From positions 622,257-686,256 of the forward strand of contig NZ_KI912183.1 in the NCBI RefSeq assembly GCF_000189755.2: a stretch of DNA of 64,000 bases. The letters run 5' to 3'. Made by a program: the position numbers and the translations under genes. The first letter of the stretch is position 1, and each line of letters starts with the position of its first letter. Shown in pieces: positions 26,955 to 43,713 of the stretch. The notes beneath the pieces were generated by a model. It ran no database searches. It saw only the letters and a program-made list of their open reading frames with translations, and was not told where the DNA came from. Source of the DNA: Desulfotomaculum nigrificans DSM 574. Its GTDB lineage: Bacteria > Bacillota > Desulfotomaculia > Desulfotomaculales > Desulfotomaculaceae.

Positions 26955-27769
26955 TACCTCCCCAGAAATTTTTCCACTAACTTCTGGTATTCCGCCGTAT
27001 ACTCCGGCGCCTCGTCCTTATGCAGTACACCCACCACAAACTTACCTACCCGCTCTTCCGGGGTTAAATTATCATAGCGCAGGGCTGTTACACCGTGATC
27101 CCGTTGCCATTTCAACATATCTGCCGGTGAACCCATCTTGTTTTGCCGCCCAAAGGAGGTCGGGCAGTGGGTAATAACCTCAATCAGCGAAAATCCCTTA
27201 TTTCTATATCCCTCAATAATTAGATCGGTCAGTAGTTTAGTATGATAGGTGCTGGCTCTCCCCACAAAGGTGGCTCCGGCCGCTATGGCCAGTTCTGCCA
27301 GATTAAAGGGACGCTCCAGGTTGCCGTAGGGGGAGGTGGTGGCGCGACTGGCGTTGGGTGTCATGGGGGAGTATTGACCACCGGTCATGCCGTAAATGTT
27401 GTTATTAAATACTATGGTGGTAAGGTTAATATTGCGCCTGGCGGCATGAATAAAATGATTACCCCCAATGGCCGTACAGTCACCATCACCGGTTAGGACA
27501 AATACATTAAGCTCCGGTTTAGCCAACTTGACACCGGTGGCAAAGGCCAAAGCCCGGCCATGGGTGGTATGCAAGGTATCAAAATCCAGGTAACCGGAGG
27601 CTCTGGCGGCGCAGCCAATGCCCGAAACAATGCTGGTTTGATCCTGATCCAAACACAGTTTATCAATGGCCTTGACCAAGCAATGCAAGATGATACCGTT
27701 GCCGCAGCCGGGGCACCACATATGGGGTAACTTTTCCAAACGAAAATATTGTTCAATCTCTGGGAGCAT
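26954..27769 (-). CDS. korB: 2-oxoacid:ferredoxin oxidoreductase, beta (TPP) subunit
   Basis: A 271-residue thiamine-diphosphate-binding subunit. It has the conserved opening PHMWCPGCGNG with the WCxGCG cluster-binding Cys pair, GIGCAARASGYLDFDT, THGRALAFATGVK, and the TPP/Mg motif LTGDGDCTAIGGNHFIHAAR with NNNIYGMTGGQYSPMTP. It is the catalytic heart where the 2-oxoacid is decarboxylated and electrons pass to [4Fe-4S]. The QYSPMTP motif is common to 2-oxoglutarate and 2-oxoisovalerate types. It is 2 bases from korA. Confidence 0.95.
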   Translation of the reverse strand: MLPEIEQYFRLEKLPHMWCPGCGNGIILHCLVKAIDKLCLDQDQTSIVSGIGCAARASGYLDFDTLHTTHGRALAFATGVKLAKPELNVFVLTGDGDCTAIGGNHFIHAARRNINLTTIVFNNNIYGMTGGQYSPMTPNASRATTSPYGNLERPFNLAELAIAAGATFVGRASTYHTKLLTDLIIEGYRNKGFSLIEVITHCPTSFGRQNKMGSPADMLKWQRDHGVTALRYDNLTPEERVGKFVVGVLHKDEAPEYTAEYQKLVEKFLGR

Positions 27770-27771
27770 GT

Positions 27772-28905
27772 TTAGTACACCTCCCTTATTTTATTTAAAA
27801 TGGTTTCCGGCTTGGTTAACTCGCCGTCAGCTTGCAGGCAGCTATAAACCCCACACCTACCACCAGCCACCCGCTGTACTTCCAATAGTAATTGACCGTA
27901 ATTCATTTCCACCACCAGCAATTTCTTGCCAGCCTGGGCTAAACTGCTGACGGCCTCTTCCGGGAAGGGCCAGATGGTTTGCGGTCTAAAGGTGCCTACT
28001 TTTAGGCCTGCCGCCCGGGCTAATTTTACTGCCCGGGCCACCGCCCGGTAGGTGCCGCCATAGGCTATTACCACCAGTTCCGCATTCTCTGTTTGTTGAC
28101 TTTCGTACGAGATGACCTGGTCTAGATTATAAGATATCTTATGATGCAGTCTTCGCAGTTGCCTGGCCACAATGTCCGGTTTTTCCGTGGCAAACCCGCT
28201 TTCATCATGGAACAGTCCGGTGACATGGAAACGGTAACCTTCACCAAAAAGGGCCATGGGGGGTGCTTCGTTTTCTTGGGCCCGGTAAGGGTAATAACTT
28301 TCCCGGTCACAATCGGGTTTAACTCGGTTAAAAATGGGTAAATCTCCCGGCTCAGGTAGGGTTACCTTCTCTCTCATGTGCCCCACCACTTCATCCATCA
28401 GGATAATCACAGGCACCCGAAATTTCTCCGCTAAATTGAAGGCCCGCACGGTTAGGTCAAAGGTCTCCCGTACTGAGGACGGGGATACCACGATGGCGGG
28501 ATGATCCCCGTGGGTTCCCCAACGAGCCTGCATCACATCGCCCTGGGCCGGAGCCGTAGCCACCCCGGTGCTGGGACCCAGCCTTTGTACGTTGACGATG
28601 ACACAGGGGATTTCCGCCATGGAGGCATAACCGATATTCTCCTGTTTTAGCGAGAACCCCGGTCCACTGGTGGCAGTCATACTTTTAGCCCCGGTGAGAG
28701 ATGCCCCTATCACGGCTGCCATGCTGGCAATCTCATCTTCCATTTGAATGAATTTGCCACCCACCTGGGGTAATCTTTTGGCTAAAATTTCGGCTATTTC
28801 GGTGGAAGGGGTAATGGGATAACCGGCATAAAATCTCATACCGGCATAGATAGCTCCTTCAGCACAGGCTTCATTGCCCTGCACCAGGCGAGGTTCTTGG
28901 CTCAT
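27772..28905 (-). CDS. korA: 2-oxoacid:ferredoxin oxidoreductase, alpha subunit
   Basis: A 377-residue alpha subunit with the pyrimidine-binding domain: QGNEACAEGAIYAGMRFYAG, YPITPSTEIAE, QMEDEIASMAAVIGASLTG and TATSGPGFSLKQENIGYA. All are hallmarks of KorA. The C-terminal transketolase-like half (EMNYGQLLLEVQRVAGGR) is present. The start overlaps the korD stop (TAATG). It provides CoA and 2-oxoacid binding in the complex. Confidence 0.95.
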   Translation of the reverse strand: MSQEPRLVQGNEACAEGAIYAGMRFYAGYPITPSTEIAEILAKRLPQVGGKFIQMEDEIASMAAVIGASLTGAKSMTATSGPGFSLKQENIGYASMAEIPCVIVNVQRLGPSTGVATAPAQGDVMQARWGTHGDHPAIVVSPSSVRETFDLTVRAFNLAEKFRVPVIILMDEVVGHMREKVTLPEPGDLPIFNRVKPDCDRESYYPYRAQENEAPPMALFGEGYRFHVTGLFHDESGFATEKPDIVARQLRRLHHKISYNLDQVISYESQQTENAELVVIAYGGTYRAVARAVKLARAAGLKVGTFRPQTIWPFPEEAVSSLAQAGKKLLVVEMNYGQLLLEVQRVAGGRCGVYSCLQADGELTKPETILNKIREVY

Positions 28906-29129
28906 TAGTTTTCCACCTCCAGGGTTATGGCATAATCAGGGCAGAAATTTTCACAAATACCGCATCCTACACAGTTATCCGGTTGGGCCACTTCTACCCG
29001 GTTTCCTTCCCCAAAAGACAGTACCCCTTTGGCGCAGAAGGCAATGCAGATGCCGCATTTTTTGCACCAGGCCTGGTTAATTACCACGCCAGTGGGTCTT
29101 AACCTTGGTACTGATGAAGGATCTGTCAC
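28905..29129 (-). CDS. korD: 2-oxoacid:ferredoxin oxidoreductase, delta (ferredoxin) subunit
   Basis: A 74-residue dicluster ferredoxin with two CX2CX2CX3C motifs (CKKCGICIAFCAKG and CVGCGICENFCPDY), so two [4Fe-4S] clusters. It opens with VVINQAWCKKCG, as KorD and VorD subunits do. It passes electrons from the TPP subunit to free ferredoxin. GTG 29129 follows GGGGAG. It is first in the kor operon. The 150-bp upstream region is AT rich, with a TATACT -10-like sequence but no clear -35. Confidence 0.93.
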   Translation of the reverse strand: MTDPSSVPRLRPTGVVINQAWCKKCGICIAFCAKGVLSFGEGNRVEVAQPDNCVGCGICENFCPDYAITLEVEN

Positions 29130-29283
29130 TGTGCACTCCCCATTTCTGTTTAGTTTTTGTTAATAAGTATTTTAGTTAACCAGTAGGAAATACTTTTTGT
29201 GTTAGATTTAACATAGCATTTATTTCTGGTTAGAAATATTAGTATAACAATTGTGTATTTTCTGAAAAAATATCTTAAAAAAA

Positions 29284-29517
29284 TTATCCCCCTGCCAACG
29301 GTGAAATTAAGACAATCTCCGCCTCGTCCGGTGGTATATAAGATAAATCTTGACGCTGCCCGTTGACCAACACAGTCATAACCAGTTCATGGCTCAGCGG
29401 AATAAGCTTTAGAATTTCTTTAATCGTAAGGGGCTTTTCTATGTGCAGCGGCAGTATTCCTTTGCCGACTGGGAAATATTCTGTTAGCAGACCAGTGACT
29501 TTAATTTTTATCTGCAA
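29284..29517 (-). CDS. MoaD/ThiS-type ubiquitin-like sulfur carrier
   Basis: A 77-residue beta-grasp protein ends in Gly-Gly (ISPLAGG), the C-terminus that is thiocarboxylated for sulfur transfer. I choose TTG 29517 because AAGGGGG is seven bases upstream. Its place just after the tungsten-type aldehyde oxidoreductase gene is the usual context of MoaD-like proteins that supply the dithiolene sulfur of the pterin cofactor. ThiS-like roles cannot be excluded. A long perfect inverted repeat separates it from the AOR gene. Confidence 0.8.
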   Translation of the reverse strand: MQIKIKVTGLLTEYFPVGKGILPLHIEKPLTIKEILKLIPLSHELVMTVLVNGQRQDLSYIPPDEAEIVLISPLAGG

Positions 29518-29585
29518 AGAAAGACCCCCTTCAATTGAAAGTAAATAGCCTGATATAAATTTAGCCATCAGTGGTTAGCCTTCAT

Positions 29586-29620
29586 CTGTAAGCAATCAGT
29601 TTAAAACTGATTGCTTACAG
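29586..29620. repeat. Perfect 17-bp inverted repeat without T-run
   Basis: CTGTAAGCAATCAGTTT (29586-29602) and its exact reverse complement (29604-29620) are separated by a single A. Neither side is followed by a T-run. It lies between the AOR stop and the MoaD-like gene. It could be a transcript-stabilising or pausing hairpin, a cruciform or a protein site. Confidence 0.8.
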
Positions 29621-29656
29621 CTCTAACACTTTTTTTATATCTCAACTTCTTTTTGT

Positions 29657-31504
29657 TTAAGATAACTTTCTCCCCTGTTTGAGCAATTCCTCCACTACAA
29701 ATTGCAAACCTAAAGAATTTAGTTTTTCTTTGGTAGGCAGGCCATTTTTGTCCCAGCCACGTAGTTGATAATAATCGTCCAGTAGTTTATCCAGATGTTC
29801 TTTAGGAATGAAATCTCCGGCATTGGGACCGGTGGTTACGGCTTCTTCGTAGAAGCGAGCCGGCGGGTAGTCGTACTGACGGCCAAAGTCAGCTATTTCA
29901 CGCCAGGCAAAGGCCCTGGTTAGATTCCAAACCTTCTCGGAAATTTGCATTAACTCTTCCTGGCTGTAGTCAAAGCCGGTAACTAAGCGGCATACCTCCG
30001 GGTAATGTTCTAGTTCAAAACCAATTTCCACCCACTGTAAGCGGCAGCAACCTATGAGATCAAAGAAAGGTCTAATATGCTGCAAATCAACCACCTTTTT
30101 GGCCTTACCATCCAGCACTTTTCTGCCCACAGCGATATCGTGGGTAACAGACCAGGCCCGGCTATGGTGGGCACCTAAATCACAGGTCATATAAGCCAGC
30201 ATGTTGGACGGTGCACTGCGGGACTCATAGCCGCTCCATTCCAGGCCCTTGACTTGGATAGCGTATTTAATGGAATCGCCGCCAAACTGCTCCGCTGCAT
30301 ATTTAACTCCTTCGGCCAGTATGTGGCCAATTCCTTGTCTAGCCACAATTTGCTCCACTAAAAATTTGAAGGACTCCACATCGCCAAATTTAATTTCCCG
30401 GCCAACCTGTTCTTTGGTGATAACACCCTTTTCATAGCACTCCATGGCGAAACCAATAACGTTACCCGCAGAAATGGTGTCTAAACCTAATTCATCACAT
30501 AGGTAGTTTAAATACCCTACCTTTTCTATGTCGGTGAATACACAGCTGCCACCAATTAATGCGGTGGTTTCATACTCCGGTCCTTCCACATACACATCGT
30601 AACCCGGTACATAACAGTATTTACCACAGGGGCTGGGGCAACCAAAACATCCCTTATCAGTCACCAGCATTTTTTGCCGCATTAACTTACCATCCAGGGT
30701 TTCGTTGCCTTCTAGGTAGGAGGATTGGAAGTTACGGGTGGGGAAGGCGCCGATGGAATTGGCCCAACAGGGCACCCCGGCAGTACCGTAATCCTGCCAC
30801 TCGTTCAAGTTTTCCTTGGCAAAGCACCCCTGTAACATTTCCTTGGCCTTGGCCACCGTGGCTGGTAGATCGGCCAGAGGAATGCTTTTAGAACCATAAA
30901 TGGCAATGGCCTTAATATTTTTGCTACCCATCACAGTACCCATACCGGTACGGCCCGCCTGCCGACCAAAATCATGGGAAATACAAGCGTATTTAACTAA
31001 TTTCTCGCCGGCGGGGCCTATGGTACAGATTTGGAATTCTTCACCCAATTCATCCTTCAGGGCTTTTTCGGTTTGGATAGCGCCTTTACCCCACAGGTGT
31101 GCGGCATCCTTTATTTCCACCTGGTCATCATTGATATAAATATAACTGGGCCTACTGGCCTGGCCTTCCAGGATAATCACATCATAGCCGGCATATTTCA
31201 TTTCGGCGGCAATATGACCGCCCACACAGCTTTCCCCGTAAATACCAGTGGCCGGTGATTTGGCCCCAAAACTTACTTTCCCGCCCGCTGGCACCAGAGT
31301 TCCGGCCAGGGGTCCGGTGGACATAATTAGCTTATTCTCAGGACCCAGGGGATCAATACCAGGCTTTAATTCATCCCAAAGAATTTTGGCGATGAATCCC
31401 CGTTGACCAACCCACTCTCTGGCCATAACTTCATCAAGGGGTTGTTTTTTGATTTCCCCGGTTGACAGGTTAATTCTTAGTATGTTACCACCGTAACCGT
31501 ACAT
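29657..31504 (-). CDS. aor: Aldehyde:ferredoxin oxidoreductase (tungsten-type)
   Basis: A 615-residue AOR-family enzyme oxidises aldehydes to carboxylic acids with ferredoxin as acceptor (or reduces acids). Visible marks are YGGNILRINLSTGE at the start, GPLAGTLVPAGGK, GRTGMGTVMGSKNIKA, and the [4Fe-4S] ligands CFGCPSPC plus a fourth Cys near the C-terminus (DLIGCC). The bis-pterin binding segments match family spacing. I start at ATG 31504 behind GGGAGGTG, one base after the ferredoxin-like gene stop; an upstream in-frame ATG at 31534 would overlap that gene. The aldehyde substrate is unknown. Context suggests aldehydes from amino-acid breakdown. Confidence 0.93.
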   Translation of the reverse strand: MYGYGGNILRINLSTGEIKKQPLDEVMAREWVGQRGFIAKILWDELKPGIDPLGPENKLIMSTGPLAGTLVPAGGKVSFGAKSPATGIYGESCVGGHIAAEMKYAGYDVIILEGQASRPSYIYINDDQVEIKDAAHLWGKGAIQTEKALKDELGEEFQICTIGPAGEKLVKYACISHDFGRQAGRTGMGTVMGSKNIKAIAIYGSKSIPLADLPATVAKAKEMLQGCFAKENLNEWQDYGTAGVPCWANSIGAFPTRNFQSSYLEGNETLDGKLMRQKMLVTDKGCFGCPSPCGKYCYVPGYDVYVEGPEYETTALIGGSCVFTDIEKVGYLNYLCDELGLDTISAGNVIGFAMECYEKGVITKEQVGREIKFGDVESFKFLVEQIVARQGIGHILAEGVKYAAEQFGGDSIKYAIQVKGLEWSGYESRSAPSNMLAYMTCDLGAHHSRAWSVTHDIAVGRKVLDGKAKKVVDLQHIRPFFDLIGCCRLQWVEIGFELEHYPEVCRLVTGFDYSQEELMQISEKVWNLTRAFAWREIADFGRQYDYPPARFYEEAVTTGPNAGDFIPKEHLDKLLDDYYQLRGWDKNGLPTKEKLNSLGLQFVVEELLKQGRKLS

Positions 31505-31505
31505 T

Positions 31506-31913
31506 TTACTGCACCTCCCTGACATCGGCATCATATAATGCTCCCCGCTGACATAATGTCACACATTCACCACAGGCTACACATTTAATAGGTGCTGTTT
31601 CTGCCGGGTGCTTAACCATGGCGTTAGAGGGGCAGGCTTCGATACATTCACCACAGCCAGTACATTTTTCCCTGTCTATTACATAAACACCGTCTTTTTC
31701 GGCAATGGCCTCAAACTGGCACACTGCAGCGCAAACACCACACTGGTTACAAATTTTTATTTCAAAACGTCCAGGTGCCGGAAAATGTCCAACTATCTTC
31801 ACAGCAGCTTTTTTAGGATTGTTTTCCGCAAAGTTGTGCAGGCTGCAAATCACCTGGCAGGTACGGCAGCCGGAACAACGAGCTTCGTTTAAAGCAATTC
31901 TCAAGTCTTTCAC
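31506..31913 (-). CDS. AOR-associated polyferredoxin electron carrier
   Basis: This 135-residue protein carries several 4Fe-4S Cys sets: CSGCRTCQVIC, CNQCGVCAAVC, CTGCGECIEAC and CVACGECVTLC, enough for four clusters. The layout is that of the DMSO-reductase-B/HycB-like electron-transfer subunits often encoded next to AOR. It would carry electrons between AOR and ferredoxin or a respiratory partner. It sits one base from aor and 27 bases after the dehydrogenase subunit gene at 31941, so all may share the sigma-54 transcript. Confidence 0.9.
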   Translation of the reverse strand: MKDLRIALNEARCSGCRTCQVICSLHNFAENNPKKAAVKIVGHFPAPGRFEIKICNQCGVCAAVCQFEAIAEKDGVYVIDREKCTGCGECIEACPSNAMVKHPAETAPIKCVACGECVTLCQRGALYDADVREVQ

Positions 31914-31940: not shown

Positions 31941-33089
31941 CTAGACAACTGATGGTTCCACAAATAACTGTCCCCGGGCAAAGCGGGTAAAGTCAAACAT
32001 ATCGATGGGTAGACTGGTTTCCTCGCCTAAAATGTATTCGGCCATTAATTTCCCGGTCATGGGGGAGATCATAAAACCGTGACCGGAAAAGCCGGCAGCC
32101 AAATAAAAGCCTTCTGTGCCGGGCACACTGCCTAAAATTTGCTGCCGATCTGGAGTCATGTCGTACTGACCGGCCCATTGCCGTACCACCCTGAGGTTAG
32201 CCAGGGGTGGTAGTAAGAAGGTAACTTTAGCCGCCATTTCATGCAAGAACTGCCAACTGGAATTATAGTTAAATTCCTTGGGTTCATTAGGATCACCAAT
32301 GCCCATAACAAAACTGCCATGGGGTACCTGCTGGCAGTACAGGCCATGGTAAAAACTCATAACCATGGGTTCTTGTATCATTTCCACCGGTTCTGTTACT
32401 AGAATTTGGTGTCGTTCCGGATGAAGTGGTAATTCAATGCCTATGGTGGCTGCCAAATCCCGGGAATAAGCCCCGGCGCAGCATACCACCACGGGACTCT
32501 CGATAACTCCTTTATTTGTTTCAACGCCGGTAATTTTACCGTCTTTGGCCAGCAATTTAGTTACTTCTGTATAGGTCATAATTTCCACGCCCAGCCGCCG
32601 GGCTGCTTTGACGTAAGCATCGGTGGTCTTAAATGGGTTACAGTGCCCGTCTTTACCACAAAAGGTGGCCCCCAGGAGTCCCTGGGTGTTTAAGTGGGGG
32701 ACAATTTCCTTCGCTTCGGCAGGGGTAACCCAGCGGGAGGGAATACCCAGTTTATGCTGCACACCCAAGTTTTTGTGGAATTGCTCCACCATTTTCTCGG
32801 TATAGGCCAGCAGTAAATAACCTCCCTGTTTAAATTCAATGCTATCGTCATAACCAAGTTCTTCTTCTAGTTGCTCAAACATTTCTATACTTTTTTTAGC
32901 CAGCAGGCAGTTGGTTTCGGTACCAAACTGCATACGTACCCCCGCTCCACAGCGTCCGGTGGCACCGCTGGTGAGATACTTCCGTTCAATTAAGATAATG
33001 TTTTTAGCACCTTTTTTAGCCAGGTTATAAGCAATGGAGCAGCCAATGACGCCGCCGCCGATAATAACAATATCCGCAGTTTTATTCAT
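31941..33089 (-). CDS. FAD-dependent amino-acid dehydrogenase catalytic subunit (DAO family)
   Basis: A 382-residue DAO-family flavoprotein (sarcosine oxidase beta / glycine oxidase / PRODH beta type). The FAD Rossmann motif VIIGGGVIGCSIAYNLAKKG is at residues 6-25, followed by TSGATGRCGAGVR. The C-terminal motif is GFYLAAGFSGHGFMISPMTG. It should oxidise the C-N bond of an amino or imino acid such as proline, hydroxyproline, sarcosine or glycine. ATG 33089 is chosen for its GGGAGGT. It overlaps the BFD-like gene by 8 bases, so it is the last of five coupled subunits. Confidence 0.88.
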   Translation of the reverse strand: MNKTADIVIIGGGVIGCSIAYNLAKKGAKNIILIERKYLTSGATGRCGAGVRMQFGTETNCLLAKKSIEMFEQLEEELGYDDSIEFKQGGYLLLAYTEKMVEQFHKNLGVQHKLGIPSRWVTPAEAKEIVPHLNTQGLLGATFCGKDGHCNPFKTTDAYVKAARRLGVEIMTYTEVTKLLAKDGKITGVETNKGVIESPVVVCCAGAYSRDLAATIGIELPLHPERHQILVTEPVEMIQEPMVMSFYHGLYCQQVPHGSFVMGIGDPNEPKEFNYNSSWQFLHEMAAKVTFLLPPLANLRVVRQWAGQYDMTPDRQQILGSVPGTEGFYLAAGFSGHGFMISPMTGKLMAEYILGEETSLPIDMFDFTRFARGQLFVEPSVV

Positions 33090-33369
33090 GATCGGTACCT
33101 CCCGCCAGCACGCCAAGTTTTACCGGAGTGGTGGGCGGCCGAAAAACAGTGAGGGGAATCTCCTGCACCGGACGTCCGGTAGCCAGGGCCAATTCGTTGA
33201 CAATGAGCGGGGTACAGGTACGACCCTGGCAGGGGCCCATACCAACCCGCAATAAACGCTTCAGTTGCTCCAAATCCGTTACCCCTTGAGCAATGTAGGC
33301 CCGAACTTCTTCGGCGGTAATATCTTCGCAGCGACACATAATGGTCACGTCCTTATTGTGCTCACACAT
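33082..33369 (-). CDS. BFD-type [2Fe-2S] subunit of the dehydrogenase
   Basis: A 95-residue protein with the bacterioferritin-associated-ferredoxin-like [2Fe-2S] fold: MCRCEDITAEEVR (CxC) and GPCQGRTC (CX4C). This domain is often the C-terminal part of the alpha subunit of sarcosine oxidase-like and hydrogen cyanide synthase-like complexes; here it is a free subunit. Gene ends fit closely (stop overlaps the next gene, start abuts the previous stop), supporting a stable complex. Confidence 0.88.
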   Translation of the reverse strand: MCEHNKDVTIMCRCEDITAEEVRAYIAQGVTDLEQLKRLLRVGMGPCQGRTCTPLIVNELALATGRPVQEIPLTVFRPPTTPVKLGVLAGGTDHE

Positions 33370-33864
33370 TTACCGTACCTCCTTAGTCTTGAAGTGCCGT
33401 ACTTCCATCATTAAATCTTTAGCCACCGCCAACCATACCACCGCAGTCCGATCCTGGACTTTACTGTTTTGTACCTTAACCACCCGGGCTTCTCCCACAG
33501 CCTGGCCGGCCCGGTTAATGGCCGTGACTGTTTCACCCACCTGGGGAATAGGTAAAAATTCATAGGGAATCTTAACTAACGCCTCCTGCTCGGAAAAGGT
33601 AGCATCAACCACAAATATAGCTAAACCCGGACAACGACTCATGCATGATCCACAGCCGTTGCACTTGTCAAAATCAATTTGCGGACGCTGATTTATATCT
33701 GTAAATTCTTTAATGGCCCCCTGCTTACAACTGTGATAACAGGGATCGCAGGGAATATTTTGGAAGCACTCGGCAATGGCTACCGGCCCTTTAGCCAACC
33801 TTTCTGCCGGTGGTAGTACCTCGGCTATGTCCTCCGGTGTCGGGATGCCGTTTTGTGCCAGCAT
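33370..33864 (-). CDS. 4Fe-4S ferredoxin-like subunit of the dehydrogenase
   Basis: A 164-residue protein with a first Cys set CDPCYHSC and a ferredoxin set CNGCGSCMSRCP, so probably one or two [4Fe-4S] clusters, followed by a beta-rich C-terminal domain (VKIPYEFLPIPQVGETV and VWLAVAKD). Similar subunits occur in archaeal proline dehydrogenase complexes and clostridial amino-acid oxidising clusters. It probably links the flavins to external ferredoxin or a quinone route. ATG 33864 follows GGAGTGA. Confidence 0.8.
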   Translation of the reverse strand: MLAQNGIPTPEDIAEVLPPAERLAKGPVAIAECFQNIPCDPCYHSCKQGAIKEFTDINQRPQIDFDKCNGCGSCMSRCPGLAIFVVDATFSEQEALVKIPYEFLPIPQVGETVTAINRAGQAVGEARVVKVQNSKVQDRTAVVWLAVAKDLMMEVRHFKTKEVR

Positions 33865-33881
33865 ATGTAATCACTCCTATC

Positions 33882-34958
33882 CTAAAAAATTACCTGGGTC
33901 AAACCTTGCCTGATCTTTTCCCCTACCGGACCGGAACGTAGACCAGTTAGCTGGTCCATTATATTTTGTCGATCGGAAGCCAGGTTCTCACTGCTATAGT
34001 CCAGACTGGCTGCAGCATTTAACCCGGCTAAGGCTCCTTCCATCATGGCTGCAGACGCTTCTTCAATACCCGCCACATCACCAGCCACATAAATACCAGG
34101 CACCGAAGTTTCCAAATTCTCATTACGTAAAGGAACGTGACCTCCCAGTTGGGGTACATAAACCATCTTACAACCGGCTTGCCACAATAGTTCCGTAAGG
34201 GGTGTTAGGCCAACGGCCAGGCAAATAACATCAGTGGCCACATCCTTTTCCGTACCCGGGATAGGTTGCCAGTTGTCATCCAGTTGCACAATGGTGGCTC
34301 CGGTGACTTCCTTTTCACCAATGGCCCGCTTAATGGTATACCGGGTATAAATGGGTACCCCAGCCCGCACCACCTTAGCAGCGTGTACCCAATAAGCACC
34401 AATGCGGGGAGCTGCTTCGATGATGCCCACCACTTCAATACCCGCTTGCAGCAGTTGGTAACTGACGATAACCCCAATATTACCGGCTCCCACCATCAGT
34501 ACTTTGTTACCTGGTTTTACACCATAAACATTGACCAGTGTTTGTACTGCACCGGCCCCGTAAACGCCCGGTAGGTCATTATTAGGGAATAATAAACTTT
34601 TTTCCGCCCCGCCGGTGGCAATGATCAGCCGCTGAGGTTTAAGGGGAATAATTTTGTTATGCTGCTGTACTAACAAAACGCCGTCCTCATAATAACCCAG
34701 GGCGGTGGCTTCGGTCATAATCTTTATTTTTTCACAGTTTTTGACTTCACTGGCCAACTGGCGGGCAATATCTATCCCTCTTTCGGAAGCTCGCTGTTGT
34801 TTGGAACCAAAAAAACGGTGAGTTTGTTTAATTAATTGACCACCTAAATAATCATTGCGATCAACCAGAGTAACTTCCGCTCCCAGTTGGGAGGCTTTCA
34901 GGGCCGCTGACAATCCTGCCGGGCCACCCCCAACGATGACAATTTCCGTATTTAGCAC
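33882..34958 (-). CDS. Pyridine-nucleotide-disulfide-family flavoprotein subunit
   Basis: This 358-residue flavoprotein has two dinucleotide motifs: VGGGPAGLSAALKA (FAD, residues about 9-22) and VGAGNIGVIVSYQLL (NAD(P)H or a second flavin), plus VPGIYVAGDVAGIEEA at the C-terminus. No redox Cys pair is seen. It resembles the alpha subunit of proline/sarcosine/octopine dehydrogenase-type complexes (HcnB-like). It probably passes electrons between the DAO subunit and the Fe-S subunits. The start overlaps the [2Fe-2S] gene by 7 bases. Confidence 0.88.
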   Translation of the reverse strand: MLNTEIVIVGGGPAGLSAALKASQLGAEVTLVDRNDYLGGQLIKQTHRFFGSKQQRASERGIDIARQLASEVKNCEKIKIMTEATALGYYEDGVLLVQQHNKIIPLKPQRLIIATGGAEKSLLFPNNDLPGVYGAGAVQTLVNVYGVKPGNKVLMVGAGNIGVIVSYQLLQAGIEVVGIIEAAPRIGAYWVHAAKVVRAGVPIYTRYTIKRAIGEKEVTGATIVQLDDNWQPIPGTEKDVATDVICLAVGLTPLTELLWQAGCKMVYVPQLGGHVPLRNENLETSVPGIYVAGDVAGIEEASAAMMEGALAGLNAAASLDYSSENLASDRQNIMDQLTGLRSGPVGEKIRQGLTQVIF

Positions 34959-35260
34959 TTTAACTCACCCTTTCCCTTTTGGGTTTCCACCACCATACCT
35001 GCCTGTAATCTCTCAACACAAACCCTAACATTTGGTTCGCCGTTTACTACCATCAAACAAGAGGAACAATTACCAATGTTACAGAACAAGCCCCTGGGAC
35101 GATGCAGGTGGGCACTTTCCCGCATGATACGAATACCGGCCGCATGCAGGGCGGCGGCAATGGTTTCACCTTCATAGCCCTCCAATTCTTGGCCATTAAA
35201 AATAAATTTAACTTTTCGTCTGGGCTGAAATTCCAGAATTGGGTGTTTTTCTATCCGCAT
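34952..35260 (-). CDS. [2Fe-2S] (Fer2_4) small subunit of the dehydrogenase
   Basis: This 102-residue subunit matches the N-terminal domain of sarcosine oxidase alpha (HcnA-like), with cluster ligands CNIGNCSSC and a later Cys (RVC). I start at ATG 35260, where AGGAGGT is eight bases upstream; the longer frame to 35350 would cover the sigma-54 promoter and its leader. First gene of the dehydrogenase operon. Confidence 0.87.
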   Translation of the reverse strand: MRIEKHPILEFQPRRKVKFIFNGQELEGYEGETIAAALHAAGIRIMRESAHLHRPRGLFCNIGNCSSCLMVVNGEPNVRVCVERLQAGMVVETQKGKGELKC

Positions 35261-35291
35261 AGGCCAATACCTCCTCATACCTTTAATACAA

Positions 35292-35306
35292 GCAAAAGGC
35301 ATGCCA
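35292..35306 (-). promoter_or_regulatory. Sigma-54 (-24/-12) promoter of the dehydrogenase operon
   Basis: Read on the minus strand, TGGCATGCCTTTTGC matches the sigma-54 consensus TGGCACGN4TTGC at every fixed position but one (C to T at position 6), including the GG and GC dinucleotides at correct spacing. Transcription would start near 35280, about 20 bases before the ATG at 35260. Confidence 0.82.
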
Positions 35307-35420
35307 ATGTGTGCTGAGCCAAAACAAATAACAGTAACACAAGTACCCATTTTAATCTAATTTTCTTTAAATTTAAGCATTTAAAATTAAAAATTACTTA
35401 AAATTATTTTAGGACATAAA

Positions 35421-35446
35421 AAAAGCACGCCGAAATGCGTGCTTTT
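35421..35446 (-). terminator. Intrinsic terminator of the first sigma-54 activator gene
   Basis: A 10-bp stem AAAAGCACGC/GCGTGCTTTT with a 6-nt loop, followed on the minus strand by a run of seven T's. It lies between the activator gene and the sigma-54 promoter. Confidence 0.87.
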
Positions 35447-35468
35447 TACCTAACCTTTAACTTAAAAA

Positions 35469-35486
35469 TGTATAATATATTGTACA
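35469..35486. promoter_or_regulatory. AT-rich near-palindrome upstream of the sigma-54 promoter
   Basis: TGTATAATATATTGTACA is palindromic except for one pair. It lies about 165-195 bp upstream of the -12/-24 elements. A related TGTATAATATATTG occurs at about 48687-48700, in the leader of the second importer operon. Possible operator or IHF-like site. Confidence 0.4.
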
Positions 35487-35489
35487 ATC

Positions 35490-35519
35490 TGTCATGCTTT
35501 TGACATGTCATGTTTGACA
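35490..35519. promoter_or_regulatory. Probable upstream activator site: tandem TGTCA...TGACA inverted repeats
   Basis: Two adjacent inverted repeats, TGTCA-N6-TGACA (35490-35505) and TGTCA-N4-TGACA (35506-35519), lie about 185-225 bp upstream of the sigma-54 promoter and directly after the activator gene. Distance and tandem dyad symmetry are typical of enhancer sites of sigma-54 activators. Confidence 0.6.
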
Positions 35520-37247
35520 CTACATAATTCCCAACTGATGCATTTTATAATAGAGAGTACTTCTGGGAATACCTAGCATACGTGCAGCCTCGGAACGGTT
35601 TCCGTTAACTTGTTTTAAAGTGCGGATAATTAAATCTCTTTCGGTCTGCTCTGTTACCGAGGCCAGTCCCACTGTGGTAGTGGCTTGATCTTGCTGGTAA
35701 GCGGTCTTGATAGATTCAGGAATGGTGGCTTCGGTAACCGTGTCACCTTCGGTCAAGATCACCATTCTTTCAATTACATTTTTTAATTGCCTGATGTTCC
35801 CAGGCCAGGGGTAAGCCAGGAAGGTAGCCATAACCCCCGGTTCCAGCTTAGTAATTTGCTTGTTATAAAGCTGGCTGAATTCGTGGAGGAATAAGTAGAC
35901 CAACTCAGGTATATCTTCACGACGTTCCCTTAAGGGAGGAATCTCCAGGGATACCACATTAAGCCGATAATATAGATCTTCTCTAAAGGTGCCTTCACGT
36001 ATCATTTCCTCTAAATCACGGTTGGTGGCAGCTATGATGCGTACGTCAACCTTAATGGGAGTTGAACCACCTACCCGGGAAAACTCGCCGTCCTGCAGCA
36101 CCCGTAGCAGCTTTACCTGCATATCTAAGGGTAATTCCCCCACTTCGTCTAAAAATAAAGTACCCCCGTCTGCCTTTTCGAAAACACCAGTCTTTCCTTT
36201 CTTGTCCGCTCCAGTGAAGGCCCCGCCGTCATAGCCAAACATTTCGCTTTCAAACAAAGTTGGGGGGATAGCTGCGCAATTTATCACGGTAAAGCTTTTA
36301 TTTGCCCTGGGACTGGCTTCATGGATGGCTTTGGCCACTAATTCCTTACCGGTACCGCTTTCACCCCGTAACAATACCACCGCATTGGTGGGAGCAACTT
36401 TTCTGGCTACATTGATTATTTCAATTAACCGCTTATGGTGACCTTTAATGTTAGCAAAGGGATTTCTGCCGGTACTCATTTGTTTAATTTCTCTCTCTAA
36501 CCGCTTTACCTGGGAACTGGCTTGATTTAATTTTTGATTAAGCTGAACAATTTCTGTGACATCTCTTTCAGCAGAGACAGCGCCAATAATCTTTGGTCCC
36601 AGTCGAACCGGGGTAGCATTGATTAAAACATGAGTTCCTGCCACAGGTTGGTGCTGTAGGGCACGAATCTCCTGCCAATCCCGATTTATTTTGGTAACAA
36701 TAATATTGGAGAAATATTTGTTAATGGGCTGGCCAATTATTTCATCTGCCTTTATCCCATATAATTCTTCAGCCCGGCTGTTCCAGGTAAGTACCACATC
36801 AGAACTGTCCACAATACAAATTGCCTCATCAACCGTTTCCACCACGGCATTTAATCTTGCCTCAATTTCACATACCCGCAGGGCTAAATCGTGAAACACC
36901 TGATCATAAGATAACACACCCAGTATATTACCCTGATGGTCCCGGCAAATCAAAGCATGGTACCTTAACTCCGGTAAAAAGGCAAGTATTTCTCTGTCTA
37001 AATCCTCTTGATCAAGGGAAGAAAAATCACGTTTCATCAGTTTATTCACCGGCACATCAGATGCAACCTGCCTGTTAATGACGTCCTTCCATAGGAGCAC
37101 GCCAACCAATTTAGTACCTTCCATGACCAGTACCACCGGACGTTTGGGAATTCCCTTTTCCCTAACTTCGCCAATGGTACTCTCAGGAGACACCAGCAAC
37201 AAATCTTTATATAGCATTTCTCTTACTGTCAAAAACCCTTTATGCAT
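35520..37247 (-). CDS. Sigma-54 activator with CBS, PAS, AAA+ and Fis domains (PrdR-like), copy 1
   Basis: 575 residues. The N-terminal ~120 residues form a CBS-domain pair, then a PAS domain (about 130-235, AICIVDSSDVVLTWN), a coiled coil and a sigma-54 AAA+ domain (Walker A GESGTGKE, sigma-54 contact loop GGAFTGA, Walker [14 protein letters not shown]). The C-terminal HTH is [19 protein letters not shown]. This architecture is that of PrdR, the proline-responsive activator of Clostridioides. It likely senses a ligand through CBS or PAS and activates the -24/-12 promoter just downstream. Confidence 0.93.
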   Translation of the reverse strand: MHKGFLTVREMLYKDLLLVSPESTIGEVREKGIPKRPVVLVMEGTKLVGVLLWKDVINRQVASDVPVNKLMKRDFSSLDQEDLDREILAFLPELRYHALICRDHQGNILGVLSYDQVFHDLALRVCEIEARLNAVVETVDEAICIVDSSDVVLTWNSRAEELYGIKADEIIGQPINKYFSNIIVTKINRDWQEIRALQHQPVAGTHVLINATPVRLGPKIIGAVSAERDVTEIVQLNQKLNQASSQVKRLEREIKQMSTGRNPFANIKGHHKRLIEIINVARKVAPTNAVVLLRGESGTGKELVAKAIHEASPRANKSFTVINCAAIPPTLFESEMFGYDGGAFTGADKKGKTGVFEKADGGTLFLDEVGELPLDMQVKLLRVLQDGEFSRVGGSTPIKVDVRIIAATNRDLEEMIREGTFREDLYYRLNVVSLEIPPLRERREDIPELVYLFLHEFSQLYNKQITKLEPGVMATFLAYPWPGNIRQLKNVIERMVILTEGDTVTEATIPESIKTAYQQDQATTTVGLASVTEQTERDLIIRTLKQVNGNRSEAARMLGIPRSTLYYKMHQLGIM

Positions 37248-37323: not shown

Positions 37324-38031
37324 TTATTCACCTAAATAGGCCTTTTTTACCTCAGGATTATTAGCTAATTCTTGGGCGTCACCAGATAATACCACTTCAC
37401 CGGTCTCTAACACATAAGCACGGTTACTGATGGACAGAGCCATATGGGCGTTTTGTTCAACCAGTAAAATAGTAGTACCAGCTTGATTAATCTCCTTAAT
37501 TATAGCAAAAATCTCCTGTACTAGCATAGGGGCAAGTCCCATTGATGGTTCATCCAACAGCAGTAATTTAGGTTTTGACATTAAAGCTCGTCCCATGGCT
37601 AGCATTTGTTGTTCACCACCGGAAAGTGTCCCGGCCAACTGGTTCTTTCTTTCCTCTAACCGGGGAAAGCGTTGAAATATTTTCTTAATATCTTCCTTGA
37701 CCTTGGCTTTGTCCTTACGAGTGTAGGCTCCCATTTCTAAATTTTCCATTACTGTCATGCGGGTAAAAACACGCCGTCCCTCGGGTACCTGAGATATACC
37801 CAGATTAACAATTTGGTGAGGCGGCATTTTTATTAAAGATTGTCCCTGGTAGGTAATTTCTCCACTTTTCGGTCGAATAAGACCGGATATTGTGCGCAGG
37901 GTGGTGCTTTTACCGGCTCCGTTGGCACCAATTAAGGCTACTATTTCCCCTTCCCTTATTTGGCAGGAAATTCCGCGCAGTGCCCTGATAGCTCCGTAAG
38001 AAACGTGCAGATCCTTTACATCCAGTAGCAT
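37324..38031 (-). CDS. livF: Branched-chain-type amino-acid ABC transporter ATPase LivF, system 1
   Basis: This 235-residue ATPase has Walker A GANGAGKS, signature LSGGEQQMLAMGRAL and Walker B KLLLLDEPSMGLAP. The LSGGEQQ with following SMGLAP is typical of LivF rather than LivG. It pairs with LivG to power import through LivHM. Last gene of the first importer operon; 76 bases and no terminator separate it from the activator gene at 37247. Confidence 0.95.
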   Translation of the reverse strand: MLLDVKDLHVSYGAIRALRGISCQIREGEIVALIGANGAGKSTTLRTISGLIRPKSGEITYQGQSLIKMPPHQIVNLGISQVPEGRRVFTRMTVMENLEMGAYTRKDKAKVKEDIKKIFQRFPRLEERKNQLAGTLSGGEQQMLAMGRALMSKPKLLLLDEPSMGLAPMLVQEIFAIIKEINQAGTTILLVEQNAHMALSISNRAYVLETGEVVLSGDAQELANNPEVKKAYLGE

Positions 38032-38034
38032 GAA

Positions 38035-38805
38035 CTAAACCACGTCCTTTCCCAGATAGGCAGCGATAACTGCGGGATCCCGCTGAATTTCTGCAGGAGA
38101 ACCAGCGGCAATTTTTTTGCCATAATCCAGCACTGTAATGCGGTGTGACAAACTCATAACAAATTTCATGTCATGTTCTACCAAAAAGATGGTGAGACCC
38201 ATTTCTTGAATTTTCCTGATCATTTTCATAAGGGTTTGTTTTTCCTGGGGATTCATACCAGCAGCCGGCTCGTCAAGCAAAAGCAACTTTGGTTCCGTGG
38301 CCAGGGCCCTGGCAATCTCTAAACGTCTTTGTTCCCCATAGGGTAAATTCTTAGCTAACTCGTCTTTTTTATGACTTAGTTCCATCAATTCCAATGCAGC
38401 CATGGCCGCTTCGGTGATGTGTGCTTCTTCTTTCTTAACCCTCGGTCCCCGTAACACAGCCCCAAGGAAACCGGTGCTGGTCCGGCAATGCTGACCCACT
38501 TTAACGTTGTCTAAAACCGTCATTTCACCAAACAACCTGATATTTTGAAAGGTCCGGGCAATCCCCATTTTGGTAATGATATGGGGCTTTAAACCATTAA
38601 TGGTTTGGCCCATAAAGCGAATCTCCCCGGAAGTGGGGGTATAAATGCAGGTAACCAGATTGAAAATGGTACTTTTACCGGCGCCATTGGGACCAATTAA
38701 AGCACGGATACTACCCTCTTCTATGTTCATATCTACACTGTCTACGGCAGTAAGCCCACCGAAACGAATGGTCACGCTATCTAACTCCAGGATGTTGTTT
38801 GCCAT
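38035..38805 (-). CDS. livG: Branched-chain-type amino-acid ABC transporter ATPase LivG, system 1
   Basis: 256 residues with Walker A GPNGAGKS, ARTFQNIRLF (a LivG mark), LPYGEQRRLEIARALA as the signature region and LLLDEPAAGMNPQE as Walker B. It sits 3 bases from livF. The order livK-H-M-G-F is the standard operon. Confidence 0.95.
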   Translation of the reverse strand: MANNILELDSVTIRFGGLTAVDSVDMNIEEGSIRALIGPNGAGKSTIFNLVTCIYTPTSGEIRFMGQTINGLKPHIITKMGIARTFQNIRLFGEMTVLDNVKVGQHCRTSTGFLGAVLRGPRVKKEEAHITEAAMAALELMELSHKKDELAKNLPYGEQRRLEIARALATEPKLLLLDEPAAGMNPQEKQTLMKMIRKIQEMGLTIFLVEHDMKFVMSLSHRITVLDYGKKIAAGSPAEIQRDPAVIAAYLGKDVV

Positions 38806-38818
38806 GCTTTTACCTCCA

Positions 38819-39724
38819 TCAGTTGGCCCCGCCGGCAGCGGAAGTTCCTGTGTTTTGTACCTTTCTTCTGGATAAAAGCCGGGTTAATTTAACCCCTCCC
38901 AGCAGTCCCCTGGGCCTAAAGATCATCATAATGACCATTAATGCACCATAAACCATCATCCGATATTCAGCTACAAACCGCAGAAATTCCGGTGCCAGGG
39001 TCAGTACCGTGGTACCCAGGATAACTCCCGGGATACTCCCCAGGCCCCCTAAAACAACGAAGGTTAAAAAATCAAAAGACTTTTGAAAACCGAAGTCCTG
39101 AGGGTTTAGGTACTGAATCAGGTGGGCATAAAGTCCACCGCTGATACCGGCCAGAAAAGTACCAATGGCAAAGGCGGTAATCTTGCTGGTAGTAATGTTA
39201 ACGCCCATGGCCTCGGCAGCAATTTCGTCTTCCCTAATTGCTACCAGCGCACGGCCAAAGCGGGAATTTTCAAGTCGATACATGGCCCAAACGGTGAGCA
39301 CAACCAAAACAATCACTAAAGTAAGGGTAGTGTAACGTGGTATGCCGGATAAACCCAAGGCACCACCCGTGATACTTAAGTTAAGGAAAACAACTCTAAC
39401 AATCTCACCAAAACCTAAAGTAGCAATACCTAAATAGTCGCCGGTCAATCTAAGTGTAGGATAACCCAGCAGAACTCCCCACAGGGCAGCCATAAAGCCG
39501 CCTGCTAAAAGTACCATCGGAAAGGGTAGATGGAGTCTAAGGCTAAGAATTGCCGAGGTATAGGCTCCGATGCTCAGAAATGCAGCGTGACCGAATGAAA
39601 GCTGCCCGGTAACACCGGAAATAAGGTTTAAACCCAGGGCGCCAATCAAGTAGATTCCCAACATAATTAATACTTGGATATAGTAGTCATTTAAAAACAT
39701 GCTGAAAATACTATCCATGTTCAT
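38819..39724 (-). CDS. livM: Branched-chain-type amino-acid ABC permease LivM, system 1
   Basis: About 301 residues, eight or so helices. It has the permease marks GLNLISGVTGQLSFGHAAFLSIGAY, LRLTGDYLGIATLGFGEIVR (EAA-like coupling helix) and VVLGGLGSIPGV. Start ATG 39724 lies just after the livH stop. With LivH it forms the membrane pore. Confidence 0.94.
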   Translation of the reverse strand: MNMDSIFSMFLNDYYIQVLIMLGIYLIGALGLNLISGVTGQLSFGHAAFLSIGAYTSAILSLRLHLPFPMVLLAGGFMAALWGVLLGYPTLRLTGDYLGIATLGFGEIVRVVFLNLSITGGALGLSGIPRYTTLTLVIVLVVLTVWAMYRLENSRFGRALVAIREDEIAAEAMGVNITTSKITAFAIGTFLAGISGGLYAHLIQYLNPQDFGFQKSFDFLTFVVLGGLGSIPGVILGTTVLTLAPEFLRFVAEYRMMVYGALMVIMMIFRPRGLLGGVKLTRLLSRRKVQNTGTSAAGGAN

Positions 39725-39728
39725 CAAC

Positions 39729-40601
39729 CTACACTTTCCTCTGGATTGGCCGTCCTAATAATCCGGTGGGCCGGAAAAGCAAGACGACAATCAGCATAGT
39801 AAAGGCAATGGCATCCTTATATAAATCAAATCCTCCGGCAACCCCCAATGTTTCTGCCACACCCAAGAATAAACCACCTAACATGGCACCTGGAATGCTG
39901 CCGATGCCACCCAAAACTGCCGCACAAAAGGCCTTTAGACCAGCCAATACTCCCATTAAAGGAGCCACCGAATTAAAGTACATACCCACCAGTACACCTC
40001 CTGCTGCGGCCAGTGCGGAGCCAATGGCAAAGGTAAAGGAAATAACTCGGTTCACATTAATACCCATCAGCGCCGCTGTATCGTAGTCCTCAGAGGCAGC
40101 CCGCATGGCTTTACCAATCTTTACATACTTAACGATAAAATGAAGACCCAACATTAATAAGCTTGAAACCACTAAAATGATTAACTGAATCTTACTAATC
40201 TCAATGGCTCCCATGTGATAGAGGGAATCATTAATTACATGGGGAAAAGCCACCGCTTGAGGTCCTTCAATTTTGGTCATCAATGTCTGCAAAAAAATAG
40301 ACACACCAATGGCTGAAATTAATGGCGCCAATCTAGTAGATCGCCGCAAAGGACGGTATGCCACTCGTTCAATGGCTACACCCATAATCATGCAAAAAGC
40401 CATAGCGGCACACAAGGAAATCAGTAAGCCCTGATGGAATACACTAACCATGAGAACCCCGATGAAGGCACCAACCATATATATTTCTCCGTGGGCAAAG
40501 TTAATTAACTGAATAATACCATAAACCATGGTATAACCCAGGGCTATCAGGGCATAGGTAGCACCCAGAGTTATTCCATTAAGCAACTGCTGCGTCAGCA
40601 T
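39729..40601 (-). CDS. livH: Branched-chain-type amino-acid ABC permease LivH, system 1
   Basis: 290 residues with the LivH opening LLNGITLGATYALIALGYTMVYGIIQLINFAHGEIYM, quoted here in part only through its key words (YALIALGYTMVYG, INFAHGE). AVLGGIGSIPGAMLGG is near the C-terminus. Multi-helix inner-membrane permease that pairs with LivM. AGGAAGGGTGG precedes the ATG. Confidence 0.94.
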   Translation of the reverse strand: MLTQQLLNGITLGATYALIALGYTMVYGIIQLINFAHGEIYMVGAFIGVLMVSVFHQGLLISLCAAMAFCMIMGVAIERVAYRPLRRSTRLAPLISAIGVSIFLQTLMTKIEGPQAVAFPHVINDSLYHMGAIEISKIQLIILVVSSLLMLGLHFIVKYVKIGKAMRAASEDYDTAALMGINVNRVISFTFAIGSALAAAGGVLVGMYFNSVAPLMGVLAGLKAFCAAVLGGIGSIPGAMLGGLFLGVAETLGVAGGFDLYKDAIAFTMLIVVLLFRPTGLLGRPIQRKV

Positions 40602-40647
40602 CTAACCACCCTTCCTACGGGGATTATGTTTACAAACATGGTTAGCA

Positions 40648-40671
40648 GCCATTACGGTCTTCCGTAATGGC
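40648..40671 (-). other. Intercistronic hairpin between livK and livH, system 1
   Basis: A 10-bp perfect stem GCCATTACGG/CCGTAATGGC with a TCTT loop lies 10 bases beyond the livK stop, without a T-run. This is typical for raising binding-protein mRNA over permease mRNA. The second system has an analogous hairpin at 47231-47257. Confidence 0.7.
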
Positions 40672-40681
40672 CGCCTCCCTA

Positions 40682-41878
40682 TTACTTCACTTCTACGGTG
40701 TCTTTAACCTGGAACTTACCGTCTTTTACAGTTAGGATATATACGGGGCTCTTAAGGGGCTCACGGTTATCCTGGAAGGTGATGACACCGGAAACGCCCT
40801 GCCAATCCTTAGTTTTGGCCAGTTCAACCCGGAATTTTTGCGGGTCTTCGCTCTTGGCTGCCTTCATGGCATCGGCCAGCAACATTACAGCATCGTAACC
40901 CTGAGCAGAGAACATATCCGGCAGTGTACCGTTGTTGCCGGCTTTATAAGCCTCAATAAACTTCTTGGTTTTTTCATTAGCCCTGGCTTCGTCAGCAGCA
41001 AAGCCGCAATAAACCATACTGCCTTCTACGGCATCGCCACCCATCTTCATCAAAACGTCGGACAACAAGCCATCGCCACCAACCATCACAGCCTTCATAC
41101 CTTGTTTACGAGCTTCCTTCATGAACAGGCCACCCTCAGTATAGTAACCGGTAAAGATAATACCATCAGGGTTTTTATCCTTAATGGCGGTTACCTGGGC
41201 GCTAAAGTTCTGGTCACGGTCCTGGATGCTCTGTTCAGCAACAATCTCCATGCCATTTTCTTGAATGGCTTTTCTGAACAGCTTGCTCAGCCCAACACTG
41301 TAATCGTTATTCATGGAGGTGATTAACGCAACTTTTTTCCAACCAAGCTTTTGATTAACATACTTGGTTACTGCCGGTGCAGCAACGGCATCCAGCAATA
41401 CATCACGGAAAATGTAATCACCAATTTCCACTACTCCGGTACCAACAGCGCCTGCAGACAGTAAAACAACCTTATTTTGCTGAGCAATAGGAGCTGCAGC
41501 CTTGGTGATACCGGTGGTGGGGTCACCCACAATGGCAACAACCTTATCCCGGGTAATTAGTTTTTGGGTAACATTAGTTCCCTCAGTAATTTTACTTCCA
41601 TGGTCCGATTCTACGATTTCAATTTTCTTACCATTTACACCGCCGGCCTTGTTAATATCATCTGCCGCCATTTTCATACCTTTAAGGGTCTCAACACCAA
41701 AGGCGGCATGCTCACCGGTTTTAGCACCCAGAAAACCAATTTTAATGGTGTCACCACCGCCAGCAGCTTGGTTGCTGTCAGCAGAATTTTGCTTTTGGCC
41801 GCCACCGCCACAACCGGCCATAATCATTACTACGCCAACTAAAATCGTTAGTAATAACCATAGCTTACCTTTTTTCAT
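40682..41878 (-). CDS. livK: Amino-acid ABC transporter substrate-binding lipoprotein, system 1
   Basis: This 398-residue type I periplasmic-binding-like lipoprotein has an N-terminal signal peptide with lipobox MAGC (Cys 23), a Gly/Ser linker, then the Leu/Ile/Val-binding fold: KIGFLGAKTGEHAAFG, GMKMAADDIN, NGKKIEIVESD, VAIVGDPTTG and DGIIFTGYYTEGG. The ligand cannot be read from sequence and may be an amino acid other than LIV. GAGGAGG precedes ATG 41878. It follows the second activator gene by 90 bases with no terminator. Confidence 0.93.
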   Translation of the reverse strand: MKKGKLWLLLTILVGVVMIMAGCGGGGQKQNSADSNQAAGGGDTIKIGFLGAKTGEHAAFGVETLKGMKMAADDINKAGGVNGKKIEIVESDHGSKITEGTNVTQKLITRDKVVAIVGDPTTGITKAAAPIAQQNKVVLLSAGAVGTGVVEIGDYIFRDVLLDAVAAPAVTKYVNQKLGWKKVALITSMNNDYSVGLSKLFRKAIQENGMEIVAEQSIQDRDQNFSAQVTAIKDKNPDGIIFTGYYTEGGLFMKEARKQGMKAVMVGGDGLLSDVLMKMGGDAVEGSMVYCGFAADEARANEKTKKFIEAYKAGNNGTLPDMFSAQGYDAVMLLADAMKAAKSEDPQKFRVELAKTKDWQGVSGVITFQDNREPLKSPVYILTVKDGKFQVKDTVEVK

Positions 41879-41967: not shown

Positions 41968-43713
41968 TCATTTTGCTGGTATCCCCAGTTGTCTAAGCTT
42001 GTAATATAACGTGCTTCTGGGAATGCCCAATACCCTGGCGGCCTCGGAACGGTTACCTTTTACTTGTTGCAGGGTTTTTAAAATCAACTGCTTTTCTGCT
42101 TCCACCGCCACACTCATTAATTTGCCTTGGGCCGTCGGAGCTGTCACCAGGGAAATATAAGTATTACGGCGTAAATTTTCGGGCAGCGATTGTTCATCTA
42201 TAACTTCGCCCTCTGTCAATACCACCAGGCGCTCCACCGCATTTTTAAGTTCGCGAATGTTTCCCGGCCAGGAGTAGTCTAAAAATGCGGTCATCACAGC
42301 AGGTTCAATCTTGCTGATGGACTTCTGGTATTTTTGGCAAAACTCCTGCAAGAATTGATGTACCAATTCCGGAATATCCTCTCGTCTTTCCCTTAATGGG
42401 GGGATCTCCAGTGACACTACATTAAGCCGGTAATACAGATCCTCTCTAAACTGGCGCCGACTGATCATAGCCTCCAGATCCCGGTGGGTTGCCGCCAGTA
42501 CCCTTACGTTTACTTGCACGGGCTCAGAACCTCCCACCCGGTAAAAGCTACCTTCCTGCAGTACTCTTAGTAATTTAACCTGCATTTCCAGCGGCAGTTC
42601 GCCCACTTCGTCTAAAAAAATGGTACCCCCATTGGCCAGTTCGAACATACCGGGTTTTCCTTTACGGTCTGCCCCGGTAAAGGCTCCACCCTCATAACCA
42701 AATAATTCACTCTCAAAGAGGTTGTTGGGTATGGCCCCGCAGTTAACCACGATAAAAGGACGTAAATGCCTGTTACTGTTTTGATGAATGGCCCGAGCAA
42801 ATAACTCTTTCCCGGTACCGCTTTCACCCCTAAGTAGTACGGTGGCATCGGTAGTACTTACCTTTTTACCAAAATTAATCAGATTTTGCATGGCCAAACT
42901 GCGACCGGTTAATTTACTAAAGGCACAGTCTTGACCGGATATCTTTTTGATTTCTTGCTCCAGTAACTTGACCTGGGAACTGGCCTTGGATAGTTCCTGA
43001 TTTAAATGGACAATCTCAGTAATATCCTTTTCCGCTGAAATGCCGCCAATTACCTTTTGACCTATACATACCGGCCCTGCATTAATTAAAACGTGGGCCC
43101 CCTCACAGGGTTGGTGGTAATGGCCGTTCACCACCTTATTTTCATGCATACAGGTGGTTATCCTAATGTTAGAAAAAAAATCTTCAATGGGCGCTGATAA
43201 GATGGTTTCTGCCTTTACTCCATACAATTCTTCGGCTTTAGAATTCCAAATAACTACCCGGTGCTGTTCATCAATACCACATATACTGTCATTCACCAGG
43301 GCCAGCAACCTATCCAGATACGCTCTTAACCTGGTGAATTCCGCCAACAAAACACTGGCCGTAGTTAACGGGTCCAGCACACCTAAAGGCTTACCGTCAT
43401 CATCCGTAACCAGAGGTATTGAACCCGGATTTTTGGTCCATTGCTCAACTACCTCGGACACAGTATCACCAACCTTAACCAATAAGGCCGGTCTCCGAGC
43501 CCGGGAACTTATGGAGTCACTTTCCCTACCGTCCATCAGGTCGGAGGTGAGAACTACCATATGAGAATTATTAATGGTAAGTAATAGTCCACCCAGCAGG
43601 CCTGATTGCAGCAATCTCTTTCCTTCCTGAACGGAAATTGATTGATCTACCTCCAGCACAGGCAGCATGCGCAAGTCCCGGACAGTTGGGTAGAACCTGT
43701 GATATCTGCCCAT
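41968..43713 (-). CDS. Sigma-54 activator with CBS, PAS, AAA+ and Fis domains (PrdR-like), copy 2
   Basis: 581 residues, paralogue of the protein at 35520-37247. The CBS-like N-terminal half is more diverged ([19 protein letters not shown]), the PAS contains [21 protein letters not shown], and the AAA+ domain has [15 protein letters not shown] and DEVGELP. The HTH is [19 protein letters not shown]. Both HTHs are nearly the same, so the two proteins may recognise similar sites but respond to different signals. It lies between the two importer operons, apparently reading through into livK of system 1. Confidence 0.93.

Follow-up and report, generated by a model that had tools for sequence, protein, structure and literature searches.

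A conserved sigma-54 promoter with a putative upstream enhancer array between a PrdR-like activator gene and an amino-acid dehydrogenase operon in a Desulforamulus genome

The window, i.e., the whole stretch of DNA analyzed here, comprises 64,000 nucleotides of a 3.05-Mb genome that consists of one contig and belongs to the genus Desulforamulus. The order on the minus strand is second Liv cluster, activator 2, Liv cluster 1, activator 1, terminator, sigma-54 promoter and dehydrogenase operon. The individual features are:

26382..31913, minus strand: probable continuation of the operon, with genes for a 4Fe-4S protein, aldehyde:ferredoxin oxidoreductase, a small MoaD/ThiS-like protein, a 4Fe-4S protein, and 2-oxoacid:ferredoxin oxidoreductase alpha, beta and gamma
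31941..34958, minus strand: operon core, with genes for a pyridine-nucleotide/FAD subunit, a 4Fe-4S protein, a BFD [2Fe-2S] protein and a DAO-family dehydrogenase subunit
34952..35260, minus strand: first gene of the operon, 2Fe-2S (Fer2_4) subunit; ATG 45 bp from the -24 GG, Shine-Dalgarno sequence AGGAGG at about 35275-35270
35291..35306, minus strand: sigma-54 -24/-12 promoter TGGCATGCCTTTTGCT, from pattern match and conservation
about 35417..35447, minus strand: intrinsic terminator of activator 1 (hairpin and T-run), in the loop between the UAS sites and the promoter
35469..35486, minus strand: UAS site C TGTACAATATATTATACA, TGT-N12-ACA, 18 bp, an AT-rich palindrome, from conservation
35490..35505, minus strand: UAS site B TGTCAAAAGCATGACA, TGT-N10-ACA, 16 bp, a PrdR-type dyad, from an exact match
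35506..35519, minus strand: UAS site A TGTCAAACATGACA, 14 bp, from dyad search and alignment of congeners
35520..37247, minus strand: activator 1, PrdR-like sigma-54 activator with CBS-like N-terminus, PAS, AAA+ with GAFTGA, and Fis-type HTH
37324..41878, minus strand: Liv cluster 1, from livK (40682-41878) to livF (37324-38031)
41968..43713, minus strand: activator 2, a paralogue and candidate second binder

Genome-wide scans were pattern scans of the 3.05-Mb genome. The comparison set consisted of ten family genomes, the window genome and nine others; activator 1 has an orthologue (80-84% identical) in each of the nine, and the sequence downstream of these genes was aligned.

Activator 1 matches PF00158 with 243 bits and PF02954 with 56 bits and contains GAFTGA, and thus ranks as a bacterial enhancer-binding protein. 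Activator 2 is 58% identical to it over 475 residues, and the helix core IPRSTLYYK is common to both. The best match of both proteins is the PrdR model (NF041552), with 609 and 581 bits, respectively, against a cut-off of 795 bits, which is exceeded by the PrdRs L050, L061 and L062 (839-882 bits; Natronincola, Acetoanaerobium and a Clostridiaceae relative). No prdA/PrdA was found in the ten family genomes, while the same search recovers PrdA in the Natronincola genome; the organism appears to be without proline reductase. The earlier note had spoken of a PrdR-like regulator. That description fits activator 1, which by its sequence is not PrdR itself because it falls below the cut-off and prdA is absent from the ten genomes.

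The DAO subunit has its best PDB match in 1y56_B (E 2.8e-92) and the pyridine-nucleotide/FAD subunit in 1y56_A, the entry 1Y56 being the L-proline dehydrogenase complex of P. horikoshii (PMC1949818). The archaeal enzyme shares with the operon the DAO-family beta subunit and the FAD subunit; unlike in that complex, the alpha part is here split into separate genes, and extra ferredoxins are present. The product is most probably a flavin-dependent amino-acid dehydrogenase, with the archaeal L-proline dehydrogenase as its nearest relative. Its substrate can be named only provisionally, because D-hydroxyproline dehydrogenases, opine dehydrogenases and HCN synthase are among the hetero-oligomeric relatives of the enzyme (PMC4575208). 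Activator 1 is adjoined by Liv-type transporters, not by a known proline transporter. In the MAGs L054, L064 and L066 (Bacillota; two are Syntrophomonadaceae), too, the five-gene dehydrogenase core has PrdR-like activators and TGTCA dyads as neighbors. In one MAG (L040, 9186-10888, compared with L039; window 29657-31534) no aldehyde:ferredoxin oxidoreductase gene separates the DAO gene from korA, and on this ground that gene is regarded as an optional part of the operon.

The genome contains one rpoN gene (sigma-54 DNA-binding domain, 4.7e-64) and 23 PF00158 matches, 17 of which exceed 225 bits. The near-perfect sigma-54 promoter announced in the earlier note was recovered: the element at 35306-35291 deviates from TGGCACGNNNNTTGCW at one position and matches TGGCAYRNNNNTTGCW throughout, and is the sole perfect -24/-12 site in the 64-kb window. 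Perfect matches are expected 0.14 times per window, and at least one was seen in 13 of 100 shuffles; genome-wide, 20 sites were found versus three for the reversed control pattern. By itself the match is modest evidence. The promoter becomes convincing through its conservation across the genus, since all ten family genomes retain the GG-N10-GC core behind the orthologous activator gene, with 42-45 bp between it and the 2Fe-2S start codon. Transcription is predicted to start around 35281-35280 on the minus strand. Upstream of the other 19 perfect -24/-12 sites in the genome there is no exact match to the B or C type. Three perfect -24/-12 sites lie within 4 kb at G000:C1:307689-311358 (L150-L152), with a further sigma-54 activator close by (about 317300), and one of the three is the identical 16-mer TGGCATGCCTTTTGCT. 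A sigma-70 promoter at 35500-35528 (plus strand, 11/12 positions matched) was rejected; it faces the opposite way, and such matches are near chance level (3 vs 1.6).

Measured from the -24 GG, site A lies at 214-201 bp, site B at 200-185 bp and site C at 181-164 bp. The dyads A and B abut exactly, and their first base directly follows the stop codon of activator 1; both the touching TGTCA dyads about 185-225 bp upstream and their place right behind the activator gene are thus as first described. They form the sole TGTCA-N2-8-TGACA pair in the window, in which 0.18 single dyads are expected, and the tandem arrangement was produced by none of 100 shuffles, even with three mismatches allowed. Genome-wide, TGTCA-N2-8-TGACA dyads and the reversed control pattern were each counted 15 times, which puts single dyads at chance level in the genome. 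A and B are, nevertheless, the sole tandem pair in the 3.05-Mb genome and the sole dyad near a sigma-54 site, so that the scan for dyads upstream of -24/-12 sites, which had been suggested as a check, returned a single co-occurrence, at the window locus.

Across the family, the three sites are conserved to different degrees. Site C is present by best match in all ten genomes and within one mismatch in nine of them, versus 0.3 in shuffles, with the family consensus TGTRCA-N6-TNNACA. In most family genomes site B reads TGTCA-N6-TGACA or has a 17-bp form, and it is degenerate in three; the strict 16-bp form (at most two mismatches) is found in just 2/10 congeners, the rest having the 17-bp or degenerate version. 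The full dyad of site A occurs in the window only, and most congeners keep the half-site TGTNCAAACA at that position. Mean column information amounts to 1.36 bits for C, 0.94 for B, 0.87 for A, 0.67 for the loop and 1.43 for the promoter. On these alignments the conservation rank is C > B > A, and the touching A and B dyads are not a genus-wide trait. The proposal of a tandem dyad enhancer is therefore supported as regards an array beside the activator gene, but not as regards its touching form as a conserved element of the genus; likewise, the AT-rich palindrome at 35469-35486 is where it had been placed, but as the best conserved of the three elements it is no mere partner.

The distance from C to the -24 GG is 177-181 bp in eight of the ten genomes (170 and 150 bp in the other two), and that from the stop codon to C is 32-80 bp. 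Between some genome pairs the similarity of the loop is 0.49, compared with 0.51 for shuffled sequence. The loop length appears to be constrained independently of sequence, because the spacing between C and the promoter holds while some loops have lost detectable similarity. A helical phasing of the loop (180, 170, 150 bp) was considered and is not significant (p 0.26).

Distant relatives bear on the identity of the operator. A range of 50-320 bp upstream of sigma-54 sites was searched at all relative loci; the exact-GAFTGA subset gave 30 TGTCA-N6-TGACA units versus 0.18 in shuffles. With at most one mismatch, TGTCA-N6-TGACA was found upstream of sigma-54 sites at 13 of 19 loci whose activators carry IPRSTL(Y/H)YK versus 1 of 43 others (Fisher p 4e-8, a value that overstates the case as the relatives are not independent, with positives in several families). 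Positive loci include those of confirmed PrdRs; in Natronincola, where the dyad is present, a sigma-54 site and prdC, prdA and prdB come after the PrdR gene. Site B, next to the activator gene and upstream of the sigma-54 promoter, is an exact TGTCA-N6-TGACA and therefore has the sequence of a PrdR-type operator, whereas site C deviates from the motif of the distant relatives in arm sequence and spacing. TGTCA-type dyads are supported as the putative operator of the PrdR-like activator, which had been the suggestion of the earlier note; its emphasis on A and B together is not borne out. One could instead assume that the sigma-54 promoter is real and that the dyads are bound by some other regulator, a repressor or a global one, with the activator working via C alone or elsewhere. 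The weaker conservation of A and B relative to C and the restriction of the tandem pair to the window species would agree with this, but the B-type dyad tracks the activator recognition helix across distant genera, PrdR loci included, and the mutual spacing of A, B and C is fixed in several congeners; we consider this explanation unlikely.

Less probable still, by a clear distance, is that the dyads are parts of an RNA hairpin or of the terminator of the activator gene and not DNA operators. In the congener G007 (L125) a 22-pair hairpin (-30.5 kcal/mol) has TGTACA-N6-TGTACA, i.e., site C, in the terminator stem, as this reading would have it. In the window, a terminator between dyads and promoter, as claimed at the outset, does exist as a separate hairpin at about 35447-35417 (-18.6 kcal/mol, z -4.6, with T-run), which a simple terminator scan did not list and which has a counterpart at the corresponding place in most congeners. 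The A-B-C transcript, by contrast, folds no better than shuffles (z -0.25), and the dyad motif stands upstream of sigma-54 sites in other genera as well. The G007 palindrome may be terminator and enhancer in one element. As for a riboswitch or other known RNA family, no Rfam match was obtained in the window. A chance origin of dyads and promoter match, for which the equal counts of dyads and reversed control and the frequency of promoter matches in shuffled sequence could be quoted, can practically be dismissed; shuffling yields no tandem dyads, and the comparison already contradicts it, with promoter and site C kept in all ten genomes.

Very probably, then, the locus is a local sigma-54 regulon, an enhancer-promoter unit in which a PrdR-like activator acts on a TGT-N8-12-ACA array and drives the dehydrogenase operon. 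The steps proposed below draw on the elements, their conservation and spacing, the motif-helix association, the gene context and rpoN. Sigma-54 RNA polymerase would wait at 35306-35291. Once its sensor domains detect their substrate, for which proline or a similar amino acid is the likeliest candidate, activator 1, perhaps also its paralogue (41968-43713), would bind the dyad array 164-214 bp upstream, mainly at C and B, site A being auxiliary or a half-site. The activator would then loop across its own terminator, hydrolyze ATP and open the promoter. The operon for a proline-dehydrogenase-like flavin/iron-sulfur enzyme and ferredoxin-linked 2-oxoacid oxidation would thereby be turned on.

A tentative extension, which we regard as possible but rather doubtful, is that the two activators act jointly on the one promoter via B (16-17 bp) and C (18 bp) and so combine two amino-acid signals. 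It is suggested because activator 2 has the same helix core, always co-occurs with activator 1 (6-7 kb apart in 10/10 genomes), and is without another perfect sigma-54 site: no further one was found in the window for activator 2 or the liv clusters. A search near activator 2 and the liv clusters in six congeners gave just two weak sigma-54 matches, whose place relative to the genes was not established. Ahead of the second livK stands a UAS-like sequence, TGTCAATATATTATACA, which is not conserved as such in five congeners. Also upstream of the second livK, at 48500-48627 on the minus strand, a block TGGAATAT..TTTTCGTAGAAATTTTTAATCAA ... GGGAGGTG(A/G)T(T/C)AAA..CTGACAG shows strong conservation across five congeners (L171, L173-L176). 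This block has no Rfam match and is possibly a leader that contains a short upstream open reading frame (MVKGLT...).

Nie et al. 2019 (PMC6615313) assigned TGT-N10-12-ACA motifs to 15 Clostridiales activator groups, PrdR among them, most of the enhancer sites lying 100-250 bp from the promoter. The dehydrogenase operon is named by none of the regulons in Table 1 of that paper. Like the enhancers of NifA, FhlA and the 15 Clostridiales groups (PMC6615313), the array described here has inverted TGT/ACA arms, a 10-12 bp spacer and several sites, which lie 100-250 bp ahead of the promoter and next to the activator gene; site A differs in its 8-bp spacer. With the PrdR enhancers at the prdA and prdC promoters of Clostridioides, Clostridium and others (PMC6615313, PMC7438776) the system has in common a model match over nearly the whole length of the activator, the recognition helix, and TGTCA-N6-TGACA dyads upstream of a sigma-54 promoter adjoining the activator gene. 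It is unlike them in the score (609 vs 795 bits), the absence of prdA from ten family genomes, the amino-acid dehydrogenase operon as target, the extra and best conserved TGTRCA-N6-TNNACA site, and the presence of two paralogous activators.

On sequence comparison the regulon is well supported, yet ordinary, as TGT-N10-12-ACA enhancers, including those of PrdR, were known before in Clostridiales. TGTCA-N6-TGACA together with its TGTRCA variant is offered as a candidate operator for a widespread branch of PrdR-like activators, and this branch would be tied to amino-acid oxidation, beyond reduction alone. For sulfate reducers, the genus-wide enhancer may serve as a test bed for the roles of loop length and of two paralogous activators in sigma-54 control.
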